The notes under the pieces were generated by a model. That model saw only the letters and a program-made list of their open reading frames with translations, was not told the DNA's origin and did not search any database. A stretch of DNA of 59,393 nucleotides from Acidobacteriota bacterium (GTDB lineage Bacteria; Acidobacteriota; Thermoanaerobaculia; Thermoanaerobaculales; Sulfomarinibacteraceae): contig JAJDNH010000161.1 in assembly GCA_022340775.1 (NCBI GenBank), positions 1 to 59,393 of the forward strand, given 5' to 3'. Positions 12,533 to 17,451 of the stretch are shown piece after piece (position 1 is the first letter of the stretch; every line of letters starts with the position of its first letter). The position numbers were made by a program, and so were the translations under genes.

Positions 12533-13009
12533 CTACATGGGATACAGCCCATCGTCCCGCCCCGGCTCGCCCGCAATCCCATTTCCTCCTTCGCCCATCT
12601 CCTCTTCGAGGAGGTCACCGAGCTCTTCCTCCACCTGCTCCGGATCTTCGCCGGCCTCGAGGCGTCGGATCATCTCCTCCATGGCCGGAGTCACCGGCTC
12701 GCCCGCAATCTCGGTCATCTTGCGGACCGCGCGCGCCATCTGGCGGGGATCGCTCTCGTCCATCCCTTCCAGCTCGGACGCGAAACGCATGAGCTCACGC
12801 TCGATGCGGGGATCATCGAGATCGCCCGATCCCCCGGCCGAGTCGGCCCCGGTCTTGGAACCTCCGGCCACCCCGAACCGCGAAGGCACCCGCTTCAGGC
12901 TCGCGGCACCGCACTTGGGGCAGGACGGTACCTTCTCAGTTTCCACGCGCCGTGACAGGAAGCTGTAGATCACGTTGCACTTGGGGCACAGGAACTCGTA
13001 GATCGGCAT
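12533..13009 (-). CDS. FmdB-family zinc-ribbon protein with long acidic tail
   Basis: 158 residues. The N-terminal 45 residues are a classic FmdB ribbon: MPIYEFLCPKCN, then SCPKCGAASLKRVPSRFG. Family members are usually about 60-110 residues; here an acidic helical tail (about 70-145, for example EEELGDLLEEEMGEGG) is added. FmdB-type proteins are called putative regulators but their function is poorly known. ATG at 13009 has GGGAGG upstream. It lies 28 bases downstream of hflX on the same strand, so probably the last gene of that operon. Confidence 0.85.
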   Translation of the reverse strand: MPIYEFLCPKCNVIYSFLSRRVETEKVPSCPKCGAASLKRVPSRFGVAGGSKTGADSAGGSGDLDDPRIERELMRFASELEGMDESDPRQMARAVRKMTEIAGEPVTPAMEEMIRRLEAGEDPEQVEEELGDLLEEEMGEGGNGIAGEPGRDDGLYPM

Positions 13010-13037: not shown

Positions 13038-14348
13038 TCAGCTCCCCGCACCGACGACCGCTTCCCAGGCGGCAAGCCGATAGTCGGCCAGGCCAGCAGC
13101 CGCCAGCCGTTCGGAGCTGATACGAACGGCGAGATCCAGAAACTGCGGACGGAAGCGGCGGGCGAGGACGTGGGGTAGGCCGAGAGCGCGCTCCACCGCC
13201 GCAGCTTCGGTCAGCGGCACCCGCAGGGTGACCACGTCCGGCGCCGACAACAACCGCTCGCGGAGCAGTTCGCGGAGCCGGTGCAAACCCTCCCCGGTCA
13301 GCGCCGAGACGCGCGGCCAGCCCGGGGTGAACGGCGACGCCTGTCGCCCGTTCCCGTTGCGGAGCAGGTCGATCTTGTTGAGCACCACCAGCACCCGCTC
13401 CCGCTCGACGCCGAGCTCGCTCAGGACCTCGTCGCTGACCTCGAGCTGCTCCTCCCAGCCGGGGTGGGAAATGTCCACGACGTGCAGCACGAGGTCGGCC
13501 TCGGCCGCCTCTCCGAGCGTCGACCGGAACGGCGCCACCAGGTGGTGCGGCAGCTTGCGGATGAAGCCTACGGTATCGGTAAGGACAGCCGTCACGCCAT
13601 CACCAAGCCCGACCTGACGCGCCCGCGGGTCCAGGGTCGCAAACAGGCGGTCCCCGACCACAACGTCGGCGCCGGTGAGACGGCGGAACAGTGAGGACTT
13701 GCCGGCGTTGGTGTAGCCGACCAGCGCCACCGTCGGCGTCCCGCTGCGACGGTGCCGTCGCAGCCGGCGTCCGTGCTCGATCTCCGTGAGCTTCCGCTTC
13801 AGCTGAGCGATGCGGTGCGAGATCAAGCGGCGGTCGATCTCGAGCTGGGTTTCACCGACGCCGCGCGTTCCGATGCCGCCCGCCTGCCTCGAAAGGTGTC
13901 GCCAACGCCGTGTCAGCCGCGGCAGCAGGTAGGTCAGCTGCGCCAGCTCGACCTGGGTCTGCGACTCACGGCTGCGTGCGTGCAGCGCAAAGATGTCGAG
14001 GATGACCGCTGCCCGATCGAGCACCTTCACGTCGTCGGGCATCACTCTTTCGAGGTTGCGGACCTGCGAGGCGGTCAGGTCCTCGTCGAAGACCACCATC
14101 TGAGCGTTCTCGCGCTCACAGGCCTCGGCTACGCGTGCCGCGAAACCGGAGCCAACCAGCGTTGCCGGGTCAGGGGCAAGCCGCTCCTGTACAAACCGTG
14201 CGGCCTCCGCGCCACCCGCCGTCGACAGCAGACGAGCCAACTCGTCGAGATGCTCCTCGACCGCGCCGCGGTTCAGTCCGCCAAAAGCCAACCCGACGAG
14301 GACGGCACGCTCCGGCTGTTGCGGCAGCGCCTGGCCCGCATCAATCAT
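13038..14348 (-). CDS. hflX: HflX ribosome-associated GTPase
   Basis: 436 residues. It has the HflX N-domain with GSGFAARVAEACER and the GIGTRGVGETQLEIDRR signature, a coiled-coil linker, then the G domain with G1 GYTNAGKSS, G3 DTVGF and G4 NKID, and a C-terminal domain. HflX splits stalled or heat-stressed 70S ribosomes. The ATG at 14348 and codons 2-5 are identical to the terminal inverted repeat of the MITE-like element at 14335-14439, so the element supplies the start. There is no good Shine-Dalgarno sequence. Confidence 0.93.
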   Translation of the reverse strand: MIDAGQALPQQPERAVLVGLAFGGLNRGAVEEHLDELARLLSTAGGAEAARFVQERLAPDPATLVGSGFAARVAEACERENAQMVVFDEDLTASQVRNLERVMPDDVKVLDRAAVILDIFALHARSRESQTQVELAQLTYLLPRLTRRWRHLSRQAGGIGTRGVGETQLEIDRRLISHRIAQLKRKLTEIEHGRRLRRHRRSGTPTVALVGYTNAGKSSLFRRLTGADVVVGDRLFATLDPRARQVGLGDGVTAVLTDTVGFIRKLPHHLVAPFRSTLGEAAEADLVLHVVDISHPGWEEQLEVSDEVLSELGVERERVLVVLNKIDLLRNGNGRQASPFTPGWPRVSALTGEGLHRLRELLRERLLSAPDVVTLRVPLTEAAAVERALGLPHVLARRFRPQFLDLAVRISSERLAAAGLADYRLAAWEAVVGAGS

Positions 14349-14453: not shown

Positions 14454-15665
14454 CTACGGCATGTCCTCCTGGTGCAGCTTCAGGAGAACTCTCTCGCAGG
14501 CGGCAAGAGTCTCCTCGACCTCCTTGACGCCGTGGGCGTTGGAAAGGAACGCGGTGCCACACGGAACACTTGGGATCAACACGCCTTCCTCGAGGAGCCC
14601 GTTCGCGAAACGCCGGTAGGCGTCCGCATCGGTGGCTTCCCAGCTGGCCTTATCGACCACCGGCTCACGACCGACGGCGACTGCAAAAGCCGAGCCGACT
14701 CGACTGAACGTCAACGGGCGCGAGAACCGCTCGGCAAGGGCCAGGATGCCTTCCTCCAGCTGCCGAGTGCGCTCCTCGAGCCTGTCGTACACGGAGTCAT
14801 TCTTGAGGATCGACAGCACGGCCTCGGCCGCCGCCAGCGACACCGGATGGGGAACGGGGAGGGACTCGTCTCGGACCAACTCCCCAGTGTCGACCCCTTC
14901 CCGCACCGCGATCGCGCCGATCGGAAAGCCCCCGCCGAGCGCGCGGCCGTAGACCGCAACGTCCGGCGTCACGTCATACAGCGTGGCGGCACCGCCGCGG
15001 TGCACCCGGAAGCCCGAGATACCCTCGTCGAACACCAGCAGCACCCCGGCCTCGGCGCAGATACCCGCGATCTCGGCCAGCGCTCCGGCCGGCGGCTCGA
15101 CGACACCGAACCGGGTCAGCAACGGGTCGAGGACGAGCGCCGCCACCTTGGAGGCGCCGCCGGTGACGGCGGCCTCGATCCGCGCCAGGTCCCAGCCAGG
15201 AACCTCCCGGACGAACCCGGAGCGGCTGGTGCCGGCCACTTCATGCTCATCGACGATGCCGTGCCCTCCGCCGTCCAGCAGCAGGAAGCTCGACTTGCCG
15301 GTCTGTCGACGAAGCCAACGCAACACAGTCCGCAGCGCCTCGTCGTGGTGGCGCACGAACGCCCACGTCGATGCCCACGGCACGAACTGCTCCAGACCCT
15401 CGGCCACATCGACCTCGAGTGGCACGTGCAGGCCGTCCGGCACGCCGGCCGCGAGCACCTTGCGAACGGCATCGAGGATGAACTGGTTGGCGTAGCCTAC
15501 GATCGCGGCGCCGCCGGCACCCGTGTAGTCGATATAGCCGTGGTTGTCGACATCATAGATGCGCGCACCTTCGGCCTTGTGAGCCAACGGATGATGCTCA
15601 ACCCGCGCCCTCATTTCCGGGAGAGCGCTGGCGCGCGTCAGGATTTCTTCACTTCTCTGGCCCAT
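14454..15665 (-). CDS. class III aminotransferase-fold protein lacking the PLP lysine
   Basis: 403 residues, clearly of the glutamate-1-semialdehyde aminomutase/class III aminotransferase fold: EGARIYDVDNHGYIDYTGAG, LLVFDEGISGFR (Asp kept) and ALGGGFPIGAIAV. The Schiff-base lysine expected before GGG is Arg241 (codon CGC, VYGRALGGG), and the Ser-Gly-Thr phosphate-binding motif is replaced by HHD (106-108). It therefore cannot act as a normal transaminase; a sensor, scaffold or lyase-like role is possible. The frame is intact and codon use matches the neighbours. It lies between a zinc-ribbon gene and hflX. Confidence 0.82.
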   Translation of the reverse strand: MGQRSEEILTRASALPEMRARVEHHPLAHKAEGARIYDVDNHGYIDYTGAGGAAIVGYANQFILDAVRKVLAAGVPDGLHVPLEVDVAEGLEQFVPWASTWAFVRHHDEALRTVLRWLRRQTGKSSFLLLDGGGHGIVDEHEVAGTSRSGFVREVPGWDLARIEAAVTGGASKVAALVLDPLLTRFGVVEPPAGALAEIAGICAEAGVLLVFDEGISGFRVHRGGAATLYDVTPDVAVYGRALGGGFPIGAIAVREGVDTGELVRDESLPVPHPVSLAAAEAVLSILKNDSVYDRLEERTRQLEEGILALAERFSRPLTFSRVGSAFAVAVGREPVVDKASWEATDADAYRRFANGLLEEGVLIPSVPCGTAFLSNAHGVKEVEETLAACERVLLKLHQEDMP

Positions 15666-15695: not shown

Positions 15696-15899
15696 TCAGC
15701 TCTCCTCGCCATCTTCTCCTTCTCCGTAGAAGAAGAAGTCGCGGCAACGGGTCGAGCAGAACTCCCGTCCGTACCCCTCGACCACGCAGCGATGGCAGAA
15801 GAGCCTACGACAGATCACACACACTTTCAATGCCTCCTCGAACACCGGGGAGCGGCACACCGGGCACCACGTTTCGACGTGTCCCTCGTTCGCTTCCAT
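15696..15899 (-). CDS. small cysteine-rich zinc-finger protein
   Basis: 67 residues from ATG at 15899, with paired motifs CPVC, CVIC, CHRC and C-STR-C, enough for two cross-braced zinc sites, and an acidic C-terminus. The frame remains open upstream, but that stretch has no motif and no better ribosome site. It ends 30 bases before the PLP-fold gene on the same strand. Function unknown; a binding or adaptor role is plausible. Confidence 0.65.
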   Translation of the reverse strand: MEANEGHVETWCPVCRSPVFEEALKVCVICRRLFCHRCVVEGYGREFCSTRCRDFFFYGEGEDGEES

Positions 15900-16027
15900 A
15901 GCCCTCAGTATACTCTGCACAAATCGTACGAATGTGAGCCCGGTCAGCGTCCAGCCGGGGATCGGGACGAGGGTCAGCCGGCGCCTCGCCACAGCTGTCT
16001 CCACCATCCCGAGAGAGCCGCCTCTGC

Positions 16028-16068: not shown

Positions 16069-16143
16069 GGCGGTGTAGCTCAGAGGCAGAGCAGGGGTCT
16101 CATAAGCCCTGTGTCGGTGGTTCAAGTCCACCCACCGCCACCA
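16069..16143 (+). tRNA. tRNA-Met (anticodon CAT)
   Basis: The cloverleaf folds fully: acceptor GGCGGTG/CACCGCC, D stem GCTC/GAGC, anticodon stem GGGGT/GCCCT with loop CTCATAA, T stem GGTGG/CCACC, discriminator A and encoded CCA (16141-16143). The 1-72 pair is G-C, so it is not the initiator. Acceptor GGCGGTG matches elongator tRNA-Met; a lysidine-modified tRNA-Ile2, which also carries CAT, cannot be fully excluded from sequence. The 3' end lies 6 bases before tilS. Confidence 0.93.
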
Positions 16144-16149
16144 CCCTCG

Positions 16150-17451
16150 ATGATCTTCGCCGGCTTCGCCCGCACGTTCGTCCGCAGCTATCCGGATCTG
16201 CTCGGCAGGCGTGTGCTCGTCGCCTTGTCGGGCGGCCCGGACTCGGTGGCCCTGCTCCACCTGATGCGCCACCCCGAGCTGCGCTTGGAGCTGATGGCCG
16301 CTCACGTCCACCACGGAACGCGTGGACCGGAGGCCGACGCGGACGCTGCGTTTTGCCGCGAGCTGTGCGAGCAACTCTCGGTTCCCTTCCATCTCCGCTA
16401 TATTGCTGCCCCGGAACATCCGGCCGAGGGACGCGAGGCGGCGTGGCGGCGGCTTCGTTACCAGCAGCTGGCGGAGCTCGGGCGACAGCTCGGCGCCGTC
16501 GCCGTCGCAACCGGCCATCAAGGTGACGATGTCGCCGAGGGCGTGCTGGTTCAGATCCTACGCGGAGCAGGACCACGAGCCCTCGCCGGCATCTCGCCGC
16601 GCACCGAAGCCGGCGTCATCAGGCCGCTGCTGCCGTACTCGCGCGCGCAGATCATCGCCTGGCTGTCCGAGCAGGGTATCGGCTGGCGGGAAGACACCTC
16701 CAACCGTAATCTGGACCATCTCCGCAACGCCGTCCGCCACCGGATCCTACCGGCTCTCGAGGAGCAGGAGCCCGCAGTTCGCAGCCACCTGGTCCGTCTG
16801 GCCGGCGCGCTCGCCGACGACGAGTCGTACCTGGCTACAGAGCTGGCGCGACGAGCCCAGTGGCTCGATCCCTGGGACCCGGACGGGGGAGTGCCCCTGT
16901 CGCTTCTCGCCGGGCTCCACGCGGCCCTGTTGACACGTTGGCTGCACGCCCAGACGAAACGCGCCGGCATCGGCCGCGCCAGCCGCCGTCAGGCCGAGCT
17001 CCTGCAATCCCTCGTCAACCACGGCTCGCCGCGGGCGGTCACACTCGGCGGACGGTGGCGGCTGCGGGCCGCACGCGGCTCGCTCTGGCTCGAGCCACCG
17101 AGCCCCGTGGAGCCGTACCGAATTCCTCTCGAGCACGGCTCGGTGATCGGGCTCCCGCTTCCCGGCTGGGCAATCCGGGTCGCAAGCAAGGGGGGCGAGG
17201 CACGCTGGTCGTTCGAGGCCCCGGCCGGGCTGCCGCTCATCGTGCGCTCGCCGGAGGCGGGCGACAAGGTCGTCGAAGAGGGTCGCCCTCGCTCACTCGC
17301 GCCGCTGTTGGCACGCCACCTCCCCCGCCACCTGCGGACGGCATGGCCGGTCGTTTGCTCCGGTGTTACAATTGTTTGGGTTCCAGGAGTATGGTCCTGG
17401 TCGCCCGCAGAACGGTCGCTTGGGGTGACCGTGGAGGTGGTGCACCGATGA
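16150..17451 (+). CDS. tilS: tRNA(Ile)-lysidine synthetase
   Basis: 433 residues. The N-terminal PP-loop ATPase motif is VALSGGPDSVALL (about 22-34), followed by HVHHGTRG; the substrate-binding and C-terminal domains follow, including the family ending LPRHLRTAWPVV. TilS converts C34 of tRNA-Ile2(CAU) to lysidine, so that AUA is read as Ile. The ATG at 16150 begins 6 bases after the CCA of tRNA(CAT), with no Shine-Dalgarno; cleavage of the tRNA would leave an almost leaderless mRNA. It overlaps the next gene by 4 bases. Confidence 0.93.
   Translation: MIFAGFARTFVRSYPDLLGRRVLVALSGGPDSVALLHLMRHPELRLELMAAHVHHGTRGPEADADAAFCRELCEQLSVPFHLRYIAAPEHPAEGREAAWRRLRYQQLAELGRQLGAVAVATGHQGDDVAEGVLVQILRGAGPRALAGISPRTEAGVIRPLLPYSRAQIIAWLSEQGIGWREDTSNRNLDHLRNAVRHRILPALEEQEPAVRSHLVRLAGALADDESYLATELARRAQWLDPWDPDGGVPLSLLAGLHAALLTRWLHAQTKRAGIGRASRRQAELLQSLVNHGSPRAVTLGGRWRLRAARGSLWLEPPSPVEPYRIPLEHGSVIGLPLPGWAIRVASKGGEARWSFEAPAGLPLIVRSPEAGDKVVEEGRPRSLAPLLARHLPRHLRTAWPVVCSGVTIVWVPGVWSWSPAERSLGVTVEVVHR

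Follow-up and report, generated by a model that had tools for sequence, protein, structure and literature searches.

The gene and its product

The locus considered here raises the question of what a protein of the GSAM/HemL family can still do once it has lost the lysine that binds PLP as a Schiff base, and why its reading frame should be kept open. The gene lies in the window, by which we mean the whole 59,393-nt stretch of DNA that was analysed, and we refer to its product and the orthologues of that product as pseudo-HemL. The gene and the codons at issue are the following.

14454..15665, (-) strand: gene for a lysine-less GSAM/HemL pseudoenzyme, 403 aa, ATG start
14943..14945, (-) strand: codon 241, CGC, Arg in the place of the PLP Schiff-base Lys, from the reading ...GTC TAC GGC CGC GCG CTC... 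and from alignment
15027..15029, (-) strand: codon 213, Asp, the counterpart of Asp246 of Arabidopsis GSAM and the one cofactor contact retained (29/29 orthologues; PMC4909244)
15342..15350, (-) strand: codons 106-108, His-His-Asp instead of the phosphate-binding Ser-Gly-Thr motif, from alignment; not conserved

The initial annotation had recognised a GSAM-like open reading frame at exactly this position, and our profile and structure searches agreed with it on both counts. The 403-aa protein matched the class III aminotransferases (PF00202, 96.9 bits, E=1.4e-27, above the Pfam gathering score of 30.5); its best profile was that of hemL/GSAM (TIGR00713), at 209 bits, which is below the NCBIfam equivalog cut-off of 527.3 bits; and solved GSAM structures in the PDB matched it with E values down to 4e-47. 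The accompanying statement that the fold is well kept holds as a GSAM-like family match at the level of sequence; AlphaFold2 models of the window protein, built from one or two sequences only, had pLDDT values of 38 and 41.

Loss of the lysine and of the cofactor pocket

We observed both of the replacements that had been pointed out before, Arg241 for Lys and His-His-Asp for Ser-Gly-Thr, in the codons as well as in alignments with GSAMs, where the window protein reads YGRALGGG against GK(V/I)(I/L)GGG, and VRHHDEA against V(N/S)SGTEA (RHHDEA at NSGTEA). Orthologues were sought in 60 relatives and then in 149 genomes of the class, and among these they were confined to two families (f1 and f2) of one order. 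The position of Arg241, which corresponds to Lys274 of Arabidopsis GSAM, was Lys in 0/29 full-length orthologues in that order: 19 of them have Gly there, 6 have Ala and 3 have Ser, and Arg occurs in the window protein only. An intact Ser-Gly-Thr motif was likewise present in 0/29. The argument that the loss of Lys is no read error and excludes ordinary transamination is thus upheld, since a read or assembly error is ruled out by 29 independent genomes; the loss, being shared by 29/29 full-length orthologues of two families, is old and lineage-wide. The conservation that the initial annotation had looked to for Arg241 and for His-His-Asp was not found among these orthologues, in which the place of Ser-Gly-Thr varies. 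Two other lysines, K30 and K381, are invariant among pseudo-HemL orthologues, and the K381 position is also Lys in 10/39 normal HemLs.

In Arabidopsis GSAM the cofactor is contacted by Gly124, Thr125, Tyr151, Asn218, Asp246, Lys274 and Thr306*, and the gating loop residues are Tyr302*, Ser164 and Thr187, the asterisk denoting the other subunit (PMC4909244). The phosphate site is lost from pseudo-HemL: the window protein has His107, Asp108 and Leu269 at the positions of Gly124, Thr125 and Thr306*, which are retained in 1/29, 3/29 and 0/29 orthologues, respectively. The contacts made by Tyr151 and Asn218 are lost as well (Gly134 and Arg185 in the window protein, with 0/29 and 0/29 orthologues retaining them), so that the losses in the pocket take in the ring-stacking Tyr and the cross-subunit Thr and Tyr. 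Deletions have also removed the substrate loop at the N terminus (GVxSPVR) and the greater part of the gating loop; the latter, with its Ser164, is missing from 16/29 aligned orthologues, those of the window's family, and is shortened or changed in most others. When HemL-invariant columns were defined as those at least 95% conserved among 39 Lys-bearing HemLs, the window protein kept 1/10 of the pocket and gating columns, compared with 42/84 of the other invariant columns (Fisher p=0.019). The orthologues have conserved residues of their own, namely K30, N60, Q61, D65, R223, S285, N289, R299, R316 and K381, and 64 columns are at least 95% conserved among them. With this pocket lost and neither Arg241 nor His-His-Asp conserved, the PMP-dependent chemistry that the initial annotation had offered as an option is unlikely as judged from the aligned sequences, and chemistry by way of Arg241 or His-His-Asp was rejected.

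Distribution and constraint

Within f1 and f2, 29 of the 37 genomes carry a full-length, intact copy of the gene, 3 have a copy cut at contig ends (G016, G029 and G036), 1 has a frameshifted copy and 4 are without the gene. One of these four (G001) has a clean deletion; the other three (G007, G017 and G035) are 88%, 66% and 74% complete, and the absence may reflect incompleteness. We saw no sign of a pseudo-HemL family beyond f1 and f2 in the 60 relatives or the 149 class genomes, the best matches read from other families being HemLs with Lys. The same family is also represented by a named public record (L033), a MAG from Thermoanaerobaculia (Acidobacteriota).

In eight close orthologue pairs (85-96% identical), dN/dS by the Nei-Gojobori method (NG86) was 0.05-0.20, similar to that of HemL from the same genomes, these figures being rough owing to GC-rich codon use. 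Values in this range place the gene under constraint, in keeping with the earlier view that its open frame is under selection. Pseudo-HemL is constrained, though less than the working enzyme: within families and in the same genomes, it has evolved ~1.9 times faster than working HemL. Nor is it indispensable, as follows from the loss in G001 and the frameshift in G027.

The two exceptional loci may be described briefly. In G027 (L069:1861-3113) the reading frame is broken once, within a run rich in G, and two sister genomes are intact; either an error in the sequence or recent decay may lie behind the break. In G001 (L124:2959-3210) pseudo-HemL is cleanly missing from between the zinc-finger gene and hflX, and ~250 bp are left with an inverted repeat, TCGTGTTTGGA...TCCAAACACGA, which is possibly the footprint of a small mobile element.

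Neighbouring genes and the ancestral locus

The gene is flanked in the window by the following features.

12533..13009, (-) strand: gene for an FmdB-type zinc-ribbon protein, downstream of hflX, in f1 only
13038..14348, (-) strand: hflX GTPase gene, downstream, adjoining the pseudo-HemL gene in f1 only
15696..15899, (-) strand: gene for an 8-Cys zinc-finger protein of ~67 aa, the constant upstream partner (15696-16007 as a listed open reading frame, in which Met37 is the start that homologues share)
16069..16143, (+) strand: tRNA-Met (CAT), between divergent transcription units
16144..17451, (+) strand: tilS, start approximate; it heads the protein genes of a conserved divergent unit, tilS-hpt-ftsH-folP-dacA, which marks the syntenic place

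On the shared strand, 30 bp separate the zinc-finger gene from the pseudo-HemL open reading frame, and 105 bp separate the latter from hflX. The zinc-finger protein has eight invariant Cys in four Cys pairs with a RING/B-box/FYVE-like spacing, and no Pfam family matched it above the family's cut-off. Its gene is upstream of pseudo-HemL orthologues in both f1 and f2; the f2 unit consists of these two genes without an adjacent hflX, while hflX and fmdB follow in f1 only, and in G001 (f1) the zinc-finger gene and hflX persist without pseudo-HemL. The operon proposed in the initial annotation therefore stands as regards its common strand, its short gaps and its constant zinc-finger gene, but the clue to translation or stress that had been drawn from hflX is weak, because that adjacency is limited to f1 and hflX outlasts the gene in G001. 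It is the zinc-finger gene upstream, a marker of the hemB-hemL locus in relatives, and not hflX that is informative here.

A profile search detected the zinc-finger family in 76/297 genomes sampled from the phylum, a minority of these being weak partial matches. Of 40 loci outside f1 and f2, 22 had the zinc-finger gene immediately upstream of a co-oriented hemB, and in 10 hemL came next. Five genomes (G125, G144, G152, G160 and G221) have the order folP-ftsH-(hpt)-(tilS) and then, divergently, zinc finger-hemB-hemL; the window has folP-ftsH-hpt-tilS and then, divergently, zinc finger-pseudo-HemL. The shared synteny on the tilS side, together with the zinc finger, indicates that pseudo-HemL occupies the hemL place of this locus, from which hemB has gone.

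Loci across Acidobacteriota with the zinc-finger gene directly before hemB, and often then hemL, include L041 (G038), L135, L139, L141, L142, L154, L157, L158, L161, L163 and others. Since many HemB enzymes depend on zinc, the zinc-finger protein might have a part in assembling or regulating HemB, a link that deserves a test. Nothing was found in open-access text on this zinc-finger gene together with hemB and hemL, and its family, beside hemB/hemL in many lineages of the phylum, is a lead to early heme regulation or assembly.

Relation to the working HemL

On contig C170 of the genome to which the window belongs, hemA, hemC, hemB, hemL, hemE and hemN form one cluster, the HemL of which has GKVIGGG and SGTEA; hemB, hemL and hemE are also together in most of the other f1 and f2 genomes examined. 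This working HemL, encoded in a cluster other than that of pseudo-HemL, is ~32% identical to it. In our tree the pseudo-HemLs formed one clade (100/100), with f1 and f2 each monophyletic, and a common clade of pseudo-HemL and the order's working HemL was rejected (p-AU 1.9e-5); an origin of pseudo-HemL as a recent duplicate of the working HemL is rejected with it. Families f7 and f9 of the same class supplied the nearest HemLs in the tree, with support (96/68) short of decisive. A topology that groups pseudo-HemL with all zinc-finger-linked HemLs of the phylum was rejected as well (p=0.007), which fits what is expected if HemL follows species descent, though it is no proof of this. With that grouping rejected, descent from a zinc-finger-linked hemL rests on position.

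Comparison with known systems

Pseudo-HemL resembles GSAM/HemL (TIGR00713, EC 5.4.3.8) in its predicted full-length class III aminotransferase fold, in the cofactor-site Asp, the glycines and the C-terminal F-S-AH motif, and in holding the hemL place of the zinc-finger-hemB-hemL locus. It differs in that the Schiff-base Lys, the Ser-Gly-Thr motif and the Tyr/Asn/Thr* contacts are missing, in its deleted loops, and in a score far below the cut-off; the pseudo-HemL genes of f1 and f2 should not be annotated as aminomutases. Dead relatives of PLP enzymes are already known. LCB1/SPTLC1 of serine palmitoyltransferase is the dead partner subunit of a fold-type-I PLP enzyme, an alpha-oxoamine synthase, and like pseudo-HemL it has a PLP-enzyme fold without Lys, under selection beside an active paralogue; there, however, the active partner is an obligate subunit, whereas the active HemL here is a distant paralogue of another cluster. 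In the ColD/E1-type lysine-less, PMP-dependent dehydratases, too, Lys is replaced in a fold-type-I protein, but the His that they use is conserved and their cofactor site is intact; in the window family, by contrast, the position is R/G/A/S and the cofactor site is lost. The plant GluTR-binding regulators GBP and FLU (PMC9614494) offer a likeness in the proposed non-catalytic adjustment of GluTR-GSAM, although they are proteins unrelated to pseudo-HemL and a GluTR-GSAM role is, for the latter, a proposal. We found no HemL pseudoenzyme described in open-access literature text. The history of the present one can be read as that of an old locus which lost hemB and whose function moved to another cluster.

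Proposed function

The explanation that we favour, at a probability of roughly 0.6, is that pseudo-HemL has no catalytic role and serves as a partner linked to the zinc-finger protein and probably to tetrapyrrole synthesis. The ancestral locus would have been a zinc-finger-hemB-hemL operon, with pseudo-HemL descending from its hemL; hemB would have left this locus in the order of f1 and f2, HemL catalysis would have moved to another hem cluster, a complete one, and the former enzyme would have shed its PLP/PMP pocket while its scaffold was retained under purifying selection. Such a protein is expected to bind neither PLP nor PMP and to be without aminomutase activity. The adjacency of the two genes suggests that it most likely forms a complex with the co-transcribed zinc-finger protein and acts in this form, and this complex may regulate or scaffold early tetrapyrrole (ALA) synthesis, for example by binding HemA/GluTR, with which HemL naturally pairs, or the working HemL. 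GluTR and GSAM (HemA and HemL) are known to associate in E. coli, Chlamydomonas and A. baumannii (PMC9614494); a surface of this kind could have survived in a dead HemL. As a tentative extension, and one that we hold to be possible at best, the 8-Cys zinc-finger protein and the HemL-derived pseudoenzyme might be a regulatory pair controlling entry into tetrapyrrole synthesis (HemA/HemL) in this one order, the zinc finger being a general heme-pathway factor that works with active HemB-HemL phylum-wide.

Conceivably, a non-catalytic protein of the HemL fold has drifted wholly from heme, either as a translation or stress factor with HflX and FmdB or with the zinc finger directed to some other target. 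We think this unlikely while giving it some weight: hflX and fmdB are co-oriented with the gene in f1, the working hem cluster lies elsewhere, and several of the protein's own invariant residues (K30, N60, Q61, R223, N289, R299 and R316) are atypical of HemL. The neighbourhood argues the other way, in that hflX is not adjacent in f2 and stays in G001 after the gene loss, and in that the constant partner is the zinc-finger gene, the companion of hemB and hemL elsewhere.

There is very little to recommend a PMP-dependent enzyme that, like the ColD/E1-type dehydratases, works without the lysine and has Arg241 or another residue as its base. Although the GSAM reaction begins from PMP (PMC4909244) and all members keep the cofactor-contacting Asp, pseudo-HemL has lost the counterparts of Gly124, Thr125, Tyr151, Asn218, Thr306* and Tyr302* along with the greater part of its gating loop, Arg241 occurs only in this genome, and His-His-Asp is not conserved. 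A functionless, decaying relic that is in frame by chance would account for the faster evolution, the one deletion (G001) and the one frameshift (G027), but it is highly improbable: two diverged families keep the gene intact in 29 genomes, close pairs have dN/dS of 0.05-0.20, and conservation reaches at least 95% in 64 columns.

A tie of pseudo-HemL to a second HemA was also considered. This second, shorter HemA (GluTR), in which the catalytic Cys is kept, is encoded at L187:5014-6072 (G000:C242), L188 and L192; its operon also includes genes for a membrane redox complex and one gene of the siroheme-synthase type, and this HemA is patchy in the order. Such a tie was rejected on these grounds, the second HemA having its catalytic Cys and an operon of its own, a patchy occurrence, and a location that is not near the pseudo-HemL gene.
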